A stretch of DNA of 64,000 bases. Source: Paracyclopina nana (lineage: Eukaryota; Arthropoda; Copepoda; Cyclopoida; Cyclopettidae). The position numbers were made by a program, and so were the translations under genes. The DNA lies in the NCBI GenBank assembly GCA_019096065.1, contig JAGUCH010000001.1, positions 6,882,001 to 6,946,000 of the forward strand. The letters run 5' to 3'. Position 1 is the stretch's first letter. Every line of letters starts with the position of its first letter. The notes beneath the pieces are model-generated. The model was not told where the DNA came from and did no database searches. It was given only the letters and a program-made list of their open reading frames with translations. Shown in pieces: positions 29,701-59,810 of this stretch.

Positions 29701-32700
29701 TTTGTAGCTAAGTTCATTTTGGCAACTTAACTTAGCTAGGCAAGCAAGCTACTTCTACATAAACTTAAGCTAAGTTAAGTTCTACCTACATAAATATCTG
29801 GGAACGCTTTTTTTGATCGACAATGGCTCGTTTGAAGAAAGGAACACAAAACAATATTTTTTTCAAAAATGCTCAGAAAGATTTTAGTAGTAGAAAGCAC
29901 TAGGCATATGGTCCTCTTCTAGTCTCTCTGCTGCACATTTAAATGTGCTGGATTTCCAGTTTATGAGGTTTAAAACATGAGTTATAGCAGTGATTATCTG
30001 TCTTATGCGATCGCGATATGGTGCTAGCTTTGCTATGGCCTTTTTAAATCCTCACAGTCCCTTGCATCTACCCGCTCTAATTTAGGTCCGTTCGAGAATA
30101 AGTACACTCGAAATTAAGCCTCCCATTTATTTAGTTTCAATTAAGGCTTGGTTCATCTACAAAATTACGGCCTACTTTTTAGGAAAATTACGATGATATT
30201 TGCCAATTACTGATGAGAAGACGCAACTTTTTGACCTGTTTTCTTTGAAATTGTACTATAACATTAAGGCTAATTCAAAATATTTGACAAAAACCACTGC
30301 AATTTCCACCGTAATTTGCAGGTGAATCTGGAATCGAACATTTTTATCTAAGTCCGCGTCCGAAATTAGGTTCTTGCGAAAATGACAAACTTTATTTGCG
30401 AAAAGCTAGTCTTCAGCTTAGATTAATGCTACAAAGTCGGTTCAGATAGCGCTAGTTGCATTCTGAAATAACTCTGTTTGTGGGCTTTTTTCGGAATCAA
30501 ATCGCCCATTGCGGTATCTGTCATCAATTAACACATACAATGTGCTAGGTTGAAACGCCGGCCCGCGGTCTTGATAAAATCACGCACCCGCTTTTGTTCG
30601 CGCCCAAATTATGACGTCATTTTGATCTGAAGAGCCCTCTGTGTACGAGTGCTGCGCCATCTAGATAAGAATGGCTTGTTTTGATAGTCAAGTTAATTAC
30701 CGGATACTTGGACGTAATCAGACTCGCAGTTGTCACTGTTGGTCAAATCAAATTCAGTGAATTGTCCTATCACTTTAAATCCTGGTGGAGGTTTAATCGT
30801 CCAGACGCAATGAAGGTTCGAGGGATAGCTGACAGGATATCCTGAAAGGGTGGAGTGAAAGTCGCAGTTTTTTCCGAGAGTCCGCGCTATTGTGTAAAAT
30901 CAATTCACCTGGCGAAAATAGGGTGTCCACTTCATTAACCCGTGCAATCACATTCCCACCACAGGAGACTATTCCAAGGGCACTAGACTCATTTTGGGAC
31001 AACGAGGACCCAGTTGATGAATAGGGCAAGGTTGGTATTCCCTCGATAGTGTTCGCCGCAGTTGAAAAATCAGGTCGTAAGTCCAAGATTTCATTAACTA
31101 AATCGTGCCCTGGGTGAAGTGGGACATCCGAAGCCAGAATCTATATGCAAATGATGAAAACTATTTTAATACAATAAAATATATACATAAGATTGTAGTG
31201 CCCGGGTAGCTCAGTCGGTAGAGCGTTAGGCTTTTAACCTAACGGTCCAGGGTTCGAGCCCCTGCTCGGGCGTCTTTTTAAATTTTTTTGTTGTAGTTAA
31301 AATCACTGAAATCGGTACCAAAAGGCTCGAAAGCAAGTCTATTCTCTGGAATTGCTTTACAACAAGCTTTTTTAAGAGCCCCTGTCGTAGTTATCAGAAT
31401 TACTATTTTAGCACTTGTAAAGCTTGCTAGCGCTAGCTCAGGTTTCCATCTGATATAAGGCCGTTCTCATATTGCCGGAAAAAGCTAAGCTAAGGTAAAA
31501 TTAGCTAAGCTAAGGTAAAAATTATGCAACGAAAACCGGTTATTTCGCTCAACATTCACAAAAAGCAGCTACTTTGCTTGAAATGTTGAGCGTTTGCTTA
31601 GCTATTTTTACCTTAGCTTAGCTATTTTCACCTTAGCTTAGCTTTTTCCGGCAATATGAGAACGGCCTATAGTTATCTCCCAACTCGGCCCAAGCTCAAC
31701 TGAACATTCGATTCACGAAAAACACCTCTGAGAAGAGGCAAAAATTGCCATTGTAGGTAGATGGCAAAGAAGTACACAGAAAGATTGAAAGTAGTCAACT
31801 GCTAAAATGGTTCGAAAATTATGAATCGTATTGGAGCAAATTCAAGACGGGTCAACAACTTTAAGGTGATTTCTTTTGTTTACAAAATTGAGCTTGGCCT
31901 TTCTAAAGTGTTTTTGCGTTAATTGTGCCAGCGTATCAATAGTTGACCTTACTTCGTCAAAAAGATAAAATGCCCAAATTGCCGAAACCCTTTATATAAA
32001 AATTGAACTCATCAAAAAGCTTTGTCCCAGAGACTTATGTAGAAAGAGAAGTGCTTAGGTCGACCTAGAAGTGCTACTTCTTGCATTCTCACTGCACGCG
32101 AGCGCGCGCCAAGTGCTCCTAGTGATTTTGAAAACATTTGGGTCAGCTGTCCTAATAAAATAGTCAGCGGGCTGCATTGATCCAGAAAGGAAAACGCCAA
32201 CTGGCACCTCTGTTTTACAGCTTTTAATTCCTAATAGTTGGGAAAATATTAATAAAAGACAAAAGATAGCCCTAGCAAAATTGAGCACCTCGTAAAATAG
32301 GACTATTTTGGCTAAGTGGACTCATTTCAGAGTTATTAGCAACCAAAAGTCTGCCCCGGCCCAAATTCAGGCAGCCGCCACCAAAATTCCAAAGTAGGCT
32401 CTTTTGGGGCGTGCAGCAGATCTGCAAACGCACCCCCATAAGCCCAGTAGCACTTCTTGCTTCTCTGCTTTGTCCCAAAAGCGTGAAATTAGCCGGCTTC
32501 ACTTAATTATTAATAAAAAAATTATGGTTTATACAATTAATTAACGTTGCCCGGGTAGCTCAGTCGGTAGAGCGTTAGGCTTTTAACCTAACGGTCCAGG
32601 GTTCGAGCCCCTGCTCGGGCGAAGAAGAGTTTTTTTTTGTTTAGATCATTACGTTATCAATTATTACCATCTGTGGCGGCTTCAAGTATTGTTGTGCTTT

Positions 32701-51286: not shown

Positions 51287-51294
51287 CATATTTT
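51287..51294. repeat. 8-bp target-site duplication, left copy
   Basis: CATATTTT lies immediately before the left terminal inverted repeat (GGTAACACTC). An identical copy is at 59803-59810. Confidence 0.9.
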
Positions 51295-52928
51295 GGTAAC
51301 ACTCTCATGTTCAGCGCACAAAAATGCTCAAATTGACATAGATATCAAATAAAAAAACACAAAAAGTCTGAGCAGGGCACATACAATCAAAATTTTTCTT
51401 TCCCAACCACCACCAATCACCACCCAAATTTGATTTTGGATTTGGTCTTTTTTTCTGATCACCACCCATCACCACCCAAATATGATTTTGGATTTGGTCT
51501 TTTTTTTCTGATCACCACCCATCACCACCCAAACTGATTTTGGATTTGGTCTTTTTTTTCTGATCACCACCCATCACCACACAAATATGAATTTCGTTTT
51601 GCCTCTTTTTTCCCAATCACCACCCATCACCACCCAAACTGATTTTGTATTTGGTCTTTTTTTTCTAATCACCACCCATCACCACCCAAATATGATTTTG
51701 GATTTGGTCTTTTTTTCAGATCACCACCCAAATTTGAATTTCGTTTTGCCTCTTTTTTCCCAATCACCACCCATCACCACCCAAACTGATTTTGGATTTG
51801 GTCTTTTTTTCTGATCACCACCCATCACCACCCAAATATGATTTTGGATTTGGTCTTTTTTTTCTGATCACCACCCATCACCACCCAAATATGATTTTGG
51901 ATTTGGTCTTTTTTTTCTGATCACCACCCATCACCACCCAAATTTGAATTTCGTTTTGCCTCTTTTTTCCCAATCACCACCCAAATTTGAATTTTGTTTT
52001 GCCTCTTTTTTCCCAATCTCCACCCATCACCACCCAAATTTGAATTTCGTTTTGCCTCTTTTTTCGCAATCACCACCCATCACCACCCAAAATGATTTTG
52101 GATTTGGTCTTTTTTTTCTGATCACCACCCATCACCACCCAAATTTGAATTTCATTTTACCTCTTTTTTTCCAATCACCACCCATCACCACCCAAAATGA
52201 TTTGGGATTTGGTCTTTTTTTCTGATCACCACCCATCACCACCCAAACTGATTTTGGATTTGGTCTTTTTTTTCTGATCACCACCCATCACCACCCAAAT
52301 ATGATTTTGGATTTGGTCTTTTTTTTCTGATCACCACCCATCACCACCCAAATATGAATTTCGTTTTGCCTCTTTTTTCCCAATCACCACCCATCACCAC
52401 CCAAACTGATTTTGGATTTGGTCTTTTTTTCTGATCACCACCCATCACCACCCAAATATGATTTTGGATTTGGTCTTTTTTTTCTGATCACCACCCATCA
52501 CCACCCAAATATGAATTTCGTTTTTGCCTCTTTTTTCCCAATCACCACCAATCACCACCCAAATTTGATTTTGGATTTGGTCTTTTTTTCTGATCACCAC
52601 CCATCACCACCCAAACTGATTTTGGATTTGGTCTTTTTTTCTGATCACCACCCATCACCACCCAAATATGAATTTCGTTTTGCCTCTTTTTTCCCAATCA
52701 CCACCCATCACCACCCAAATATGATTTTGGATTTGGTCTTTTTTTTCTGATCACCACCCATCACCACCCAAATATGATTTTGGATTTGGTCTTTTTTTCT
52801 GATCACCACCCATCACCACCCAAATATGATTTTGGATTTGGTCTTTTTTTCTGATCACCACCCATCACCACCCAAATTTGAATTTCATTTTACCTCTTTT
52901 TTCCCGAATACCACCCATCACCACCCAG
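51295..52928 (+). repeat. Left arm: terminal repeat plus ~30 tandem ~51-bp units
   Basis: The first ~100 bp are unique terminal sequence. From about 51400 two unit types are interspersed. Type A contains GATTTTGGATTTGGTC and TTTTTTTCTGATCACC; type B contains GAATTTCGTTTTGCCTC and TTTTTTCCCAATCACC. Both are joined by CACCACCCATCACCACCC. The opposite strand is G-rich (GGGTGGTGATGGGTGGTG). Confidence 0.95.
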
Positions 52929-53151
52929 ACGATGCTAAAGTTAGCACTATGACAAATTCAAAATTAGTCAAAACATGGTGAAAAAATGCAAAACTTTGTA
53001 AAACGTTGTCAAAAATACAATTTTGCTCAGGCAAATATGCTCTCTTCATCTACAAACTCCTTAAGGAATCGGAACTCAAAATTCCTTTGCGCCAAAGAGT
53101 TCTCAGTACATAAATTAGCTGCGTAGAGTTGTATGCATGGATTTGTCACAA

Positions 53152-55263
53152 CCCCACAAAACAAATCCGCAAACCATACCGATTTGATCCTAATTTAGTA
53201 CGTATTTTTGATCAGTATTCTTGTTACAAGAATATACCTAAAAGCGTAACACAACCGTTTCATAAAATTTTTGCGAAATCCTGATCTCTAAAACTTATCG
53301 CTATCAACTTAATTTCATTTTTATTTTATCCTATGGTATGCATGTGTGAAAATAATACATGAATTTTTTTGTTTCATAAGTTATTATAGATAGTATTAAT
53401 AATTTAATTTATAAATTAACAGTATTGAATCTGTTTTAAAAGTGTTTTCATCTAATAAAAGACTTATTTAAAAATAAATTTTTATTTTGACAAATTTCGA
53501 ATCTGCTATGCCTATTTTATAGGTATTTATTGTAAATTTTTCTTGTTTTCTAGGTATGTACTATACTTTTAAAAAAATTAACAAGTACATTAAATCAAAG
53601 GGGAATGATGTTTTTATCTGGCATTGTGAATTCTGATGTCAATTTCATCCCAATTCTTTGTCAATTTTTATGATAAAAATGTGATTTCTTTATTACCTTT
53701 TTTCCCCACTTTTATGTATTACAAATACATTAAAGGGGGATATAAGACTGATTTTAATTCACAACTAATTAACAAGATACAATGCATAAAAATTCTGAAA
53801 ATAAACTATGTTACATAATGTTTATGAATTTTTATGTGAGTCTGAAATTTGCAGGCTCTCTCCACTCTAATGACCCATTTCATGTGTAAGTCTTTAGACA
53901 TAGAAAGTTCTGATTTTGAAAAAATAGAGTGGACTATTGTGGTACATGTAAAAAAATATTGAAATATTCTAAAAATCTCAGTTTTTTGTATAAAAACTGA
54001 GGTTCATGATACTTTCTAACCCAGTTTTCATGCTGTTCTAAACAACATCTATTAATGATGATTTTTGAAATCTCAAAACCATTAAAAGTTATTGATAAGA
54101 ACAATTTCACAAATTATTGAATTGCAAGCAGAGCCATCTCTGAACAGTTTACTAAGTTCAATTTAAGAAAACAGATAAAATACAGATTTTCTACCCACTT
54201 ATTAAATCTGTAGAATCTACATTTACACCCGACTTAGTATACTTGTAGATAGCAGCACCAAAAGTAAGAGGATGAGACTCAGTGTAGAGTCCTAAGTGTA
54301 TTTAGGTGTGATTAAGAACATGCAATTTTTTTAATAGCAAAATGATGTCAATCTACATTTTGTACCAACCTACTTATTCCAGTAAATATACTTTAAAACT
54401 TGACTTAGTATACTTGTTGACAGTATAGCTGAATAGTAGCGGATGATTCTCAGAGTAGAGTCGTTACTGCATTTAGGTGTGATTAAGAACATGCAATTTT
54501 TTTAATAGCAAAATGATGTCAATCTACATTTAGTACCAACCTACTTATTCCAGTAAATATACTTTAAAAATTGACTTATTATACTTGTTGACAGCATAGC
54601 TGAATAGTAGCGGATGATTCTCAGTGTACAGTTGTAACTGCATTTAGGTGTGATTAAGAACATGCAATTTTTTTAATAGCAAAATGAGGTCAATATACAT
54701 TTAGAACTAACCTAGTTAATTAGAAGAGTGGGGATTTAAAAGAGATAAAATATAGAAAAAAACATAAATAAAGTAATATTGATGTTGTTAAAAAATTCAC
54801 ACCTAAAATTATATACTATTTGGCATTAGTATATATTTCATTTAAACAAATATCATTAATAATGAAGCAAATCAGTAGGGAAAAAAATTAGTGTAAACTT
54901 TGTTACAATTAAATCAAATAAATAGGTGATTAATATACTTAAAATAGGGACATTGATTTTTAGGTTTATTAAAAAAAAGTTAATGATGAATGACTTAGTT
55001 ATATGCTATAAAATTCATATCAATTTGAAAATTAAAGAATAATGAAAGTATTTTAAAGACTTTAAGTAGGTCATTTTGTCGCCATTTCAAATCTTTTAAA
55101 ATTGAATATCTTAAAGACTAATTATGATAGAGTGAAAAAATAACATGCGAGTAATCTATGGATATAGATGAATTGATGTATATCAAAATTAATCAATTTG
55201 GACACTATTGATTTTCCAACTGGCTTTACTACAGATTTACTATAGACTTTTTGTTTTGTGGGG
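53152..55263. mobile_element. Internal module A with CCCCACAAAACAAA inverted ends
   Basis: It starts CCCCACAAAACAAATCC and ends with the inverse TTTGTTTTGTGGGG (2112 bp). It is homologous in direct orientation to 55264-57596; shared blocks occur at 53842-54150 and 54955-55263. It contains a 171-bp sequence repeated three times (starts 54231, 54402, 54573). AT-rich and without a convincing coding frame. Confidence 0.75.
54210..54720. repeat. 171-bp tandem triplicate in module A
   Basis: The recurring GACTTAGTATACTTGT-like segment begins at 54231, 54402 and 54573, exactly 171 bp apart. Each copy also carries GGTGTGATTAAGAACATGCA. Confidence 0.85.
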
Positions 55264-57596
55264 CCCCACAAAACAAATCAAAAAATAGTAGGGAATTAAG
55301 TTGGACTAAATTGTGAATTAAAATGTGTCGTAATGCCAGTTACTACAGCTTGATCCGTAACTATATCGCTAAACATAAGAAATTGTAAATAGGGATGACT
55401 AAAATTTACTGCTACGACTTATTTTTTGATTTTGTAATAATGAACACCCTCTAAGGATTACCAATATAAAAATAAAAAATTTAATATATTAATTATTAAA
55501 AGACTTATACATTGTTAAAATTTCGACCTATATAGTCTTTATTCCTATTTTTTCCCATTCATGGGGAAAAAGACACAAATTAAATTTTTTTTTGTTTTTG
55601 TTTTTGTTTTTGCTCCCAAACTTGTTTTTTTTAACTATGAAATGTCTATTTTTGCCAATAAATCTATAATCAAACTGGATTTCAACAATATTTTGTTCCT
55701 AAATAATTCTATTAAAACTTGTGTTATGACTGTTATAATACATACTTATATTCTTATATTTTCTCATCGGAAATGTCAATTATTGATTACATTTGTTTGG
55801 ATTAATTAAAATGTGAATTATTTCCATCACTTTTTTCTATATTCCTTACTGTTAATCTTGATTTTTTATTAATTATGTAATTTTGTATTTATTACATTTT
55901 ACTTCTTTGCTCTATTTTTAATTTACAATTTGTACAAATGGTAAGCCTGAAATTTGTAGGCTCACTCCACTCTAATGACTCATTTCATTTGTAAGTCTTT
56001 TAGACATAAAAAAATCTGACTTTAAAAAATATTGTGTTACATAGCATAAAATATTGAAATATTCTAAAAATCTCAGTTTTTGTATAAAAACTGAGGTTCA
56101 TGATACTTACTAACTCACTTTTCATGTTGTTCTAAACAACATCTATTAATGAAGATTTTTGAAATCTCAAAACCACTAAAAGTTGTAGATAAGAACAATT
56201 TTACAAATTATTGAATTGCAAGCAGAGCCATCTCTGAATAGTTTTCTAAGTTAGATTTGAAATTTCTTAAAAACATGGAATAAACGCACAATGAATACTC
56301 CCAGAAATTTACATTTAAACTGGAATTAGTACAATGGTTGATAGCTTATAGAAAGGTTTGAGGATGAGACTTGGTGTAGAGTTGCAACTGCATTTAGGGT
56401 GGATTAGGAACATGTTTTTTCAGCAATGGCCCGAAAATCAAAATATACTTTAAGTTCTGACGAATTAACTCCAAGAAATCTACATTTAAACTGGAATTAG
56501 TACAATGGTTGATAGCTTATAGAAAGGTTTGAGGATGAGACTTGGTGTAGAGTTGCAACTGCATTTAGGGTGGATTAGGAACATGTTTTTTCAGCAATGG
56601 CCCGAAAATCAAAATATACTTTAAGTTCTGACGAATTAACTCCAAGAAATCTACATTTAAACTGGAATTAGTACAATGGTTGATAGCGTATAGAAAGGTT
56701 TGCGGATGAGACTCGGTGTAGAGTAGCAACAGCATTTAGGGCGGATTAAGAAAAGGTTTTTTTAGCAATGGCCCAAAAATCAAAATCTAGACATAGCACT
56801 GAGTTACTAAATCCAAAAAGTGGAAATTTAATAGGCAATTAAAATACAAATTTCATTTTATTCAAATTCATGACAATTGATTATTAGGCTGCAGTCTTTA
56901 AGCAATTTTGAGCCAATATAAATGGGATCAATTTGCAATTGGCGAAAGTAGCAAAATTGTAATAAATTAGTTACCTACTAAATCAGGAGAATTGTTATAT
57001 AAAGTGAATTTTTATTGTAGTGAGTTAAAAAGCAAAGTCAGGATTAAATAGCTACATACAAAATCAAGAAAGTAGGGATTTAATAGGTTAAAAATGAACC
57101 GTAAAGAAACAATCGAGTAGTAATAAAATTCACACCTATAATTCTAAACTATTTTTTATTAGTATACATTTCAACATAACAATTTTCGGTACAATGGAAG
57201 CTTGACAGTTGTAATAAAAATAAGTGTAAACTTTATTTCTATTAAATGAAAGAAATAGGAAATAAATATAAATAAAATAGGGATATTGTTTTTTAGGTTT
57301 TCGAAAAAAATTAAACATGAAATGACTTGATTACATGCTGTAATTTTCATATTAATTCGAAAATTAAAGATTAATGAAAATTTTTTAACGCCATTGAGTA
57401 CGTCAATTTGTCACCATTTTGAATCTTTTAAAATTGAATATCTTAAAGACTAATTATGATAGAGCGAAAAAAATAACATGGGAGTAATCTATGAACATAG
57501 ACGAATTGATGTATGCCAAAATTAATCAATTTGGACGCGATTTATTTTCAGACTGGCATTACTAGGGAATTACTACAGGCTTTTTGTTTTGTGGGG
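55264..57596. mobile_element. Internal module B with CCCCACAAAACAAA inverted ends
   Basis: It starts immediately after module A with CCCCACAAAACAAATCA and ends TTTGTTTTGTGGGG (2333 bp). The A/B junction is therefore a perfect palindrome centred on GTGGGGCCCCAC. It aligns with A through its outer and middle parts and has a matching 171-bp triplicate (56322, 56493, 56664). The 82-codon frame at 55561-55809 is low-complexity and not called. Confidence 0.75.
56300..56800. repeat. 171-bp tandem triplicate in module B
   Basis: GGAATTAGTACAATGGTTGA recurs at 56322, 56493 and 56664, exactly 171 bp apart. Copies 1 and 2 are nearly identical. It is homologous to, but diverged from, the triplicate in module A. 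Confidence 0.88.
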
Positions 57597-57654
57597 TACG
57601 TGGAGAAACTCCGTGCGCCAAATCGAAATTGGGTGACAAGCTCTTATGGATAAG

Positions 57655-58600
57655 GTCAATTTTGAGTCAAAATGTCTATAATGGCTGATAATTTGAGGCA
57701 TTTGGACCCTAAATGTGAGGCAAAGTCAAGCTTTGACTCATTTTTGACTATGCTAGAAATAAAAACTATTGAGAAAATGCAAAATTCTGGACTTGTCAAT
57801 TTTGAGTCAAAATGATAATTTGAGGCATTTGGACTCTAAATGTGAGGCAAAGTCACGCTTTGACTTATTTTTGACTATGAGAGAAATAAAAACTTACGCA
57901 TCCCGTAACGCTAGTAATAAACTATTGAGAAAATGCAAAATTCTGGACTAGTCAATTTTGAGTCAAAATGTCAGTAGTGGCTGATAATTTGAGGCATTTG
58001 GACCCTAAATGTGAGGCAAAGTCAAGCTTTGACTTATTTTTGACTATGAGAGAAATAAAAACTTACGCATCGCGTAACGCTGCTAATAAACTACTAAGAA
58101 AATGCAAAATTCTGGACTAGTCAATTTTGAGTCAAAATGTCAGTAGTGGCTGATAATTTGAGGCATCTGGACTCTAAATGTGAGGCAAAGTCAAGCTTTG
58201 ACTTATTTTTGACTATGAGAGAGCCAAAACTTGCGCATCGCGTAATGCTGCTAATAAACTACTAAGAAAATGCAAAATTCTGGACTAGTCAATTTTGAGT
58301 CAAAATGTCAGTAGTGGCTGATAATTTGAGGCATTTGGACCCTAAATGTGAGGCAAAGTCAAGCTTTGACTTATTTTTGACTATGAGAGAGCCAAAACTT
58401 ACGCATCCCTTAACGCTACTTATAAACTATTGAGAAAATGCAAAATTCTGGACTAGTCAATTTTGAGTCGAAATGTCAGTAGTGGCTGATAATTTGAGGC
58501 ATCTGGACCCTAAATGTGAAGCAAAGTCAAACTTTGACTCATTTTTGACTATGCGAGAGCCAAATTTTGCGCATCGTGAAATGCTTTACTTTTGCAAACT
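57655..58600. repeat. ~168-bp tandem array, six copies
   Basis: GTCAATTTTGAGTC(A/G)AAATG starts at 57655, 57795, 57951, 58120, 58288 and 58455. Spacing is 140, 156, 169, 168 and 167 bp; the first two copies carry internal deletions. Each unit has a short palindromic AAGTCAAGCTTTGACTT-like core. It lies between module B and the right arm, with no counterpart next to the left arm. Confidence 0.9.
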
Positions 58601-58644
58601 TTCAAACTCAAAATGAGTCAAGAATCTCATATTTTGAGTCATAT

Positions 58645-59802
58645 TTTGGGTGGTGATCAGAAAAAAAAGACCAAATCCAAAATCAGTTTGGGTGGTGATG
58701 GGTGGTGATTGGGAAAAAAGAGGCAAAATGAAATTCAAATTTGGGTGGTGATGGGTGGTGATCAGAAAAAAAAGACCAAATCCAAAATCAGTTTGGGTGG
58801 TGATGGGTGGTGATCAGAAAAAAAGACCAAATCCAAAATCAGTTTGGGTGGTGATGGGTGGTGATTGGGAAAAAAGAGGCAAAACGAAATTCAAATTTGG
58901 GTGGTGATGGGTGGTGATCAGAAAAAAAAGACCAAATCCAAAATCAGTTTGGGTGGTGATGGGTGGTGATCAGAAAAAAAGACCAAATCCAAAATCAGTT
59001 TGGGTGGTGATGGGTGGTGATTGGGAAAAAAGAGGCAAAACGAAATTCAAATTTGGGTGGTGATGGGTGGTGATCAGAAAAAAAAGACCTAATCCAAAAT
59101 CATATTTGGGTGGTGATGGGTGGTGATCAGAAAAAAAGACCAAATCCAAAATCAGTTTGGGTGGTGATGGGTGGTGATTGGGAAAAAAGAGGCAAAACGA
59201 AATTCAAATTTGGGTGGTGATTGGGAAAAAAGAGGCAAAACGAAATTCAAATTTGGGTGGTGATGGGTGGTGATCAGAAAAAAAGACCAAATCCAAAATC
59301 AGTTTGGGTGGTGATGGGTGGTGATTGGGAAAAAAGAGGCAAAACGAAATTCAAATTTGGGTGGTGATGGGTGGTGATCAGAAAAAAAAGACCAAATCCA
59401 AAATCAGTTTGGGTGGTGATGGGTGGTGATCAGAAAAAAAGACCAAATCCAAAATCAGTTTGGGTGGTGATGGGTGGTGATTGGGAAAAAAGAGGCAAAA
59501 AGAAATTCAAATTTGGGTGGTGATGGGTGGTGATCAGAAAAAAAAGACCAAATCCAAAATCAGTTTGGGTGGTGATGGGTGGTGATCAGAAAAAAAAGAC
59601 CAAATCCAAAATCATATTTGGGTGGTGATGGGTGGTGATCAGAAAAAAAGACCAAATCCAAAATCAAATTTGGGTGGTGATTGGTGGTGGTTGGGAAAGA
59701 AAAATTTTGATTGTATGTGCCCTGCTCAGACTTTTTGTGTTTTTTTATTTGATATCTATGTCAATTTGAGCATTTTTGTGCGCTGAACATGGGAGTGTTA
59801 CC
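58645..59802 (-). repeat. Right arm: inverted array of ~20 units plus terminal repeat
   Basis: Reverse-complement of the left arm with the same two unit types, but shorter (about 1.16 kb against 1.63 kb). The last ~190 bp match the left terminus with one difference. Confidence 0.95.
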
Positions 59803-59810
59803 CATATTTT
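59803..59810. repeat. 8-bp target-site duplication, right copy
   Basis: CATATTTT immediately follows the right terminus (GTGTTACC) and is identical to 51287-51294. Confidence 0.9.

Follow-up and report, generated by a model that had tools for sequence, protein, structure and literature searches.

The locus considered here, a 64,000-nucleotide stretch of the Paracyclopina nana genome (contig JAGUCH010000001.1, positions 6,882,001 to 6,946,000; hereafter the window), raises the question of whether an inverted structure of tandem repeats, flanked by a short direct duplication, is a mobile element and, if so, what moves it. The copy in the window, E1, spans 51295-59802 (8,508 bp). It starts and ends with inverted, non-tandem outer ends of ~113 bp that begin with GGTAACACTC, followed inwards by arms built of a ~52-bp unit, whose arrays also show higher-order periodicity at 105 and 156. 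An earlier note, made from the letters of the window alone, had described a complete foldback-like element with a perfect 8-bp duplication and arms of tandem subrepeats; the coordinates, the arrays reported by Tandem Repeats Finder (TRF) and the copies of CATATTTT on both sides bear out that description (Table 1). From the base composition of the window, an 8-bp flank match at E1 would arise by chance with p about 2e-5. E1 and its relatives (family 1) are a real family of mobile DNA elements of foldback structure.

A search of the genome (92 Mb, 10 contigs) with the 116-bp end recovered 29 termini, 23 at 95-100% identity and six at 78-80%, and a second search with a diverged terminus returned the identical 29 places. 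These pair into 14 complete copies and a one-ended copy, E11. Eleven complete copies of 4.0-13.1 kb make up group A (E1-E4, E5 outer, E5 inner, E6-E10) and three of 16.3-23.3 kb make up group B (E12-E14). The earlier note had proposed looking for a second copy with the same ends and for 8-bp duplications in its flanks: E1 is not a lone copy, and an exact 8-bp duplication borders all 14 complete copies, every one of a different sequence (CATATTTT, CAACCGGC, GTTTTTAT, CTTTACTT, GAAAATGG, CTTTTTTT, CAAAAATC, AAATTCTC, CATTTACT, CAATTATG, CGAATATG, TGAATTTA, GAAAAATA and GTTGCGTC), which excludes chance. Lengths of 1 to 15 were tried for each copy and 8 was the longest that fitted in each. Across 28 symmetrised target rows, the six central positions were A/T in 23 or 24 rows, the outer two positions were G/C in 19, and position 2 was A in 18. 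When 27 flanks of 900 bp from the 14 unnested loci were compared, the single match was between E6's own two flanks (inverted, 75% over 196 bp), so segmental duplication does not account for the copies. The other copies, like E1, have long inverted arms made up of tandem subrepeats. The arm arrays were short in one arm of E12 (~0.4 kb) and in E5 inner and E10 (~0.6 kb) and reached ~4.3 kb in the other arm of E10, and the ~169-bp arrays held from a few units to dozens.

Insertions nested within family 1 revealed two sister families whose arms differ from those of family 1. Family 3, with ends GGCCGCGACTGCATAGGCAGGGATC (GGCCGCGACTGC) and arms of 19-bp repeats, was nested in E8 (4,746 bp, duplication TGCTGCTA) and in E9 (6,002 bp, duplication GAATTTTT). 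Both E1 (53361-53368) and E2 have the site of the E9 insertion in uninterrupted form, differing at 2 of 58 bases. Family 2, with ends GGCAGTGGCCAGATATCCAGCGCACAGAAT (GGCAGTGGCCAG), was represented by a complete copy of 13,265 bp nested in E13 (duplication CATTTTGA). Its terminus was also present in E14 with the same 10-base flank as in E13, and a composite of families 1 and 2 may have moved as a unit. E5 inner is itself of family 1 and lies in an arm of that same family. For each of the four nested insertions an uninterrupted site was matched with at most 3 mismatches in 58 bases; these sites are paralogous, belonging to different copies or repeat units, and not alleles. Over the three families, 17/17 complete copies had 8-bp duplications and all had GG/CC ends except E12, in which each end is altered by one base (the second base is changed at one end and the last C is missing at the other; its 8-bp duplication was read from there). 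Families 1 and 2 also share CAGCGCACA, starting at position 18 of each terminus, which we read as a candidate transposase site.

The interior modules are likewise not confined to one family. The ~169-bp module of E1 also occurs outside the family, in a search that gave at least 356 matches, with 39 of 202 candidates scored. In two outside loci (C3:6562900-6572150 and C5:6706800-6712600), each read in part, CTCACCTCAC-type repeats form inverted arms that enclose ~160-bp and ~169-bp modules, the ~160-bp modules matching E9, E13 and E14 at 81-92%. The family-2 terminus was read first at the C3 locus and then in E13 and E14 (3 mismatches in 34); the other end of the C3 locus carried no family-2 terminus, and a duplication sought there was not found. 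What is unusual in this system is that at least three foldback families reside together, are nested in one another and have interior modules in common. At the C3 locus a short repeat resembling a miniature inverted-repeat transposable element, with inverted ends GGGCCTGTTCACCTGC...GCAGGTGAACAGGGCC, was seen in two places (L059, L061).

The two outer ends of E1 are nearly identical. The earlier note had counted one difference over ~190 bp, and a single difference was indeed present in the first 200 bp, at position 11 (T left, C right); in the alignment of the first 400 bp, 392 columns matched, 6 were mismatches and 3 were gaps. Of the two explanations that the note had offered, recent insertion or arm homogenisation, the second fits better: over the first 104 bp the ends of E1 differ by 1 mismatch compared to 4-6 in the other ten group-A copies (E13 and E14 have 3, E12 none). 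The ends of group-A copies are not equivalent. With copies oriented by placing the end with T at position 11 first, the opposite end had C in 10/10 complete copies counted; E8, excluded for a small insertion, displayed the same pattern in the alignment. Positions 90, 96 and 101 are likewise specific to the end type with single exceptions, such as the C-end base at position 90 in the T-end of E6 and at position 96 in the one-ended E11. The right end of E1 has the right-type base at 11 and left-type bases at 90, 96 and 101, and is thus left-type at 3/4 end-specific sites, which makes it the odd one among the C-ends. In a 400-bp comparison this right end agreed best with the left end of E1 itself (391 positions); its matches to the T-ends of other copies numbered 332-372 and those to their C-ends 306-381, with E2 highest among the latter. 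Conversion between the arms of E1 is the best explanation for the near-identical outer 200 bp, because the right end is closest to its own left end and carries left-type bases. E1 is not the only copy whose arms are locally alike: the ends of E4 had 6 mismatches in 400 bp, the same as E1, yet 4 of these fell within the first 104; the ends of E12 had none in 200 bp. The T-ends of E1 and E2 show no difference in 200 bp, and these copies share a pair of interior stretches, each ~1.17 kb long and alike at 99.1 and 99.7%, one of them including a 171-bp array; this near-identity indicates that the spread of group A was recent.

The open reading frames of E1 are short or made of arm repeats, with the longest interior stop-to-stop frame reaching 96 aa. 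A Pfam scan of 10 of the 17 interior frames of at least 50 aa returned none over the curated cut-off (best E 0.0057). In the other copies, the frames of at least 120 aa listed outside the arm repeats were judged by eye, covering E8 in part, and looked repeat-derived or were without an assignment, the insert in E12 excepted; the gene-type frames at E11 lie past its right arm. A tblastn search (E<=1) with nine transposase pieces (two Mutator-like element (MULE) and seven P-type) against 15 elements gave just two 24-residue matches (E 0.30 and 0.47), while the same queries recovered their kin in control loci. As a transposase was found in no copy with these MULE and P-type queries or among the frames scanned, family 1 looks non-autonomous. 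The interior of E12 (L024:6082-9501, L025:271-2763) contains an insert resembling a long terminal repeat retroelement. Its frames comprise one for an integrase, one for a viral fusion glycoprotein (PF24664, E 6.8e-76) and a gag-like one whose PNMA match fell below the cut-off.

Candidate transposases were sought elsewhere in the genome. Eleven P-type matches were detected, two of them within elements with perfect 14-bp inverted ends CAGAGACTTA... and 8-bp duplications: P1 (C1:7812068-7816943, duplication AATTAATC) and P2 (C5:1231642-1236949, duplication ACTGAAAC; L038, L039, L049-L052). The P-type domain matches each have one in-frame TAG when read without introns. There were five MULE-domain matches, in frames of 252 to 537 aa. 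A RING-type zinc finger lies C-terminal to two of the MULE frames (L033:1057-2667, L035:1432-2661); for the second of these the RING match is just below the curated cut-off. The ends of P3, P4 and one MULE locus with an extended right flank were not found in the partial flanks, and strings resembling the terminus in the vicinity of P-type and MULE loci were rejected as ends, being unpaired and of about chance frequency by estimate. Merlin (PF12762) had no genome match at E <= 0.001, with a control that matched in 1/14 genomes; hAT (PF05699) and Zisupton/KDZ (PF18758) had none either, in searches whose controls were also without a match. The hAT target follows the pattern nTnnnnAn; family-1 targets favour A at position 2 and T at position 7 (18/28 symmetrised rows), the opposite preference. 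None of the five transposase families sought in the genome adjoined family-1 termini. Strings within 3 mismatches of the first 20 bases of the end occurred at 38 places compared to 8 for a reversed control; 29 of these are the known termini and the other nine carry 2 or 3 mismatches.

Among known foldback systems, the FB and FB-NOF elements of Drosophila melanogaster have long inverted arms of tandem subrepeats, a 9-bp duplication and the Mutator-like NOF transposase. Family 1 resembles FB in its arms but has 8 bp in 14/14 copies, as the earlier note had remarked for E1, and is not the Drosophila FB family. The TU elements of sea urchins are also of foldback build with an 8-bp duplication, and differ by description in their short outer repeats. 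Family 1 works like Galileo and Tetris and is structurally a foldback element. Galileo, of the P superfamily, is described with foldback-like arms of about 300 bp to 1.2 kb (PMC3573991, PMC3688188) that hold repeated transposase-binding sites (PMC3688188); the same accounts give it internal tandem repeats in some subfamilies, unequal repeat number between arms and signs of exchange between copies, all as in family 1. By description Galileo differs in its 7-bp duplications and in a P-type transposase in some copies, whereas family 1 has 8 bp, no transposase was found in it and its arms reach ~4.3 kb. Tetris of Drosophila virilis is presented as a non-autonomous foldback element with no autonomous copy found, whose arm repeats also occur as satellite-like arrays; its arm repeats of ~220 bp and duplications varying from 8 to 10 bp between copies set it apart from the ~52-bp unit and constant 8 bp of family 1 (PMC4079207). 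Tm1 of Meloidogyne, with elements of 1.1 and 2.6 kb, shares foldback-like ends with tandem motifs (~14-bp in Tm1) and groups of non-autonomous elements, and is unlike family 1 in duplications of 8-10 bp, mostly 9, and in a Phantom-like transposase reported for one group (PMC3169594). These accounts, together with that of Muta1, show that 8 bp alone does not distinguish family 1 from foldback-like elements, and the earlier note's suggestion of an undescribed family holds to this extent: family 1 is plausibly new as a family so far as searched, and ordinary as a kind, the foldback transposons. It was not found in print in the open-access literature, curated repeat libraries lying outside that search, and a string search of this literature with the 10-base terminus gave, among the matches listed, only unrelated subjects by title. 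Among DNA transposons, foldback elements are understood less well than the rest. The present genome combines 14 complete copies whose duplications are clean, arms of widely differing length and nested copies with uninterrupted counterparts, so that three questions can be tested together: which transposase drives the elements, whether the arm repeats serve as binding sites or are passengers, and whether such elements give rise to satellite DNA and disperse it.

Leaving aside the superfamily of its enzyme, the E1 family is very probably a non-autonomous foldback transposon, a DNA element moved by cut-and-paste; this reading is based on the 14 complete copies that have their two ends in common and lie at unrelated sites, on their exact 8-bp duplications and on the uninterrupted counterparts of nested insertions. 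A transposase supplied by another element would recognise the outer ~110 bp, and perhaps also repeated sites in the arms, would cut at the GG/CC ends and would join these to target strands cleaved 8 bp apart. The arm repeats and interior satellite arrays would grow and shrink, probably via unequal exchange, and the arms within one copy could convert each other. By analogy with Galileo, our best single guess, and a tentative one, is that the enzyme belongs to the P superfamily, whose duplications of 7 or 8 bp agree with the 8 bp of family 1. Some observations weigh against this account. The autonomous relative with the same ends and a transposase that the earlier note had proposed to look for was sought in the genome and not found, and for this reason the transposase step is one that we infer; the ends of P1 and P2 are unlike GGTAACACTC; and, as regards conversion, the right-type end of E2 may be an alternative source for the right end of E1, being a close second in similarity (381 compared to 391). 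That the structures are an assembly artefact or segmental satellite DNA instead of a transposon is very improbable: assembly of long tandem repeats in inverted orientation is difficult, and some contigs are of round size (6,825,000; 6,305,000; 7,647,500), suggesting Hi-C scaffolding, but different exact duplications at 14 sites, unrelated flanks, the absence of N from all 14 unnested elements and the uninterrupted sites speak against it.

The same element might alternatively be moved by a Mutator-like (MULE/Phantom) transposase, as are FB-NOF and Tm1 and perhaps Tetris, which we regard as somewhat unlikely. The genome does hold MULE-domain matches, and Muta1, a Mutator-like element, is reported to combine terminal tandem repeats with duplications of 8 or 9 bp (PMC5225508); Tetris and Tm1 are given 8-10 bp. 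However, none of the five matches lay within 1 Mb of a family-1 terminus, inverted ends with a duplication were not found around the one locus with an extended right flank, and the duplications are exactly 8 bp in 14/14 copies, or 17/17 with the sister families. At the rate reported for Muta1 in yeast (21/60 at 8 bp; PMC5225508), 14/14 would have a probability of about 4e-7 by our own arithmetic, a figure that may differ for other MULEs, so the constant 8 bp speaks against a Muta1-like MULE and not against every MULE. We give a smaller chance to a transposase superfamily not yet recognised, marked by the GG ends, the subterminal site at position 18 and the AT-rich 8-bp target. Three families with different arms have GG ends and 8-bp duplications in common, two of them share the motif at the same offset, and five transposase families were sought with none found by the termini; on the other side, the hAT and KDZ searches lacked control matches, which keeps both among the candidates, and not finding an enzyme is weak evidence. 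In a doubtful extension of this idea, a single unrecognised transposase would serve several foldback families as a modular system that picks up, expands and disperses tandem-repeat DNA, a proposal that draws on their insertion into one another and on the satellite modules common to their interiors. The coordinates of E1 and of the nested sister elements are collected in Table 1.

Table 1. Features of E1 (window positions) and of the sister-family elements nested in other family-1 copies (contig positions).
Feature	Position	Strand	Remarks
Left target-site duplication CATATTTT	51287..51294	+	abuts GGTAACACTC starting 51295
Left outer terminus, non-tandem	51295..51407	+	T-type at position 11, GGTAACACTCTCATGTTCAGCGCAC...
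Left arm, tandem array	51408..52927	+	TRF: 29.4 units of period 53, or 14.7 of period 105
Interior without credible coding sequence	52928..58646	.	~5.7 kb
Uninterrupted site GAATTTTT	53361..53368	+	E9 bears a nested family-3 element here, with GAATTTTT as its duplication
Interior tandem array	54231..54718	+	period 171, 2.9 copies
Interior tandem array	56297..56786	+	period 171, 2.9 copies
Interior ~169-bp tandem module	57813..58576	+	period 168, 4.5 copies; occurs outside the family too
Right arm, tandem array inverted relative to left arm	58647..59689	-	TRF: 20.2 units of period 52, or 6.7 of 156
Right outer terminus	59690..59802	-	C-type at position 11, left-type at 90, 96, 101
Right target-site duplication CATATTTT	59803..59810	+	abuts reverse complement of GGTAACACTC ending 59802
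Family-3 elements	E8 C2:511188-515933; E9 C3:10560601-10566602		L017/L018, L019/L020
Family-2 element	E13 C1:11039710-11052974		L026-L028

A COX1 search of the genome gave no match. Elsewhere in the window, two tRNA matches of equal score were detected on the same strand at 31200-31272 and 32549-32621.

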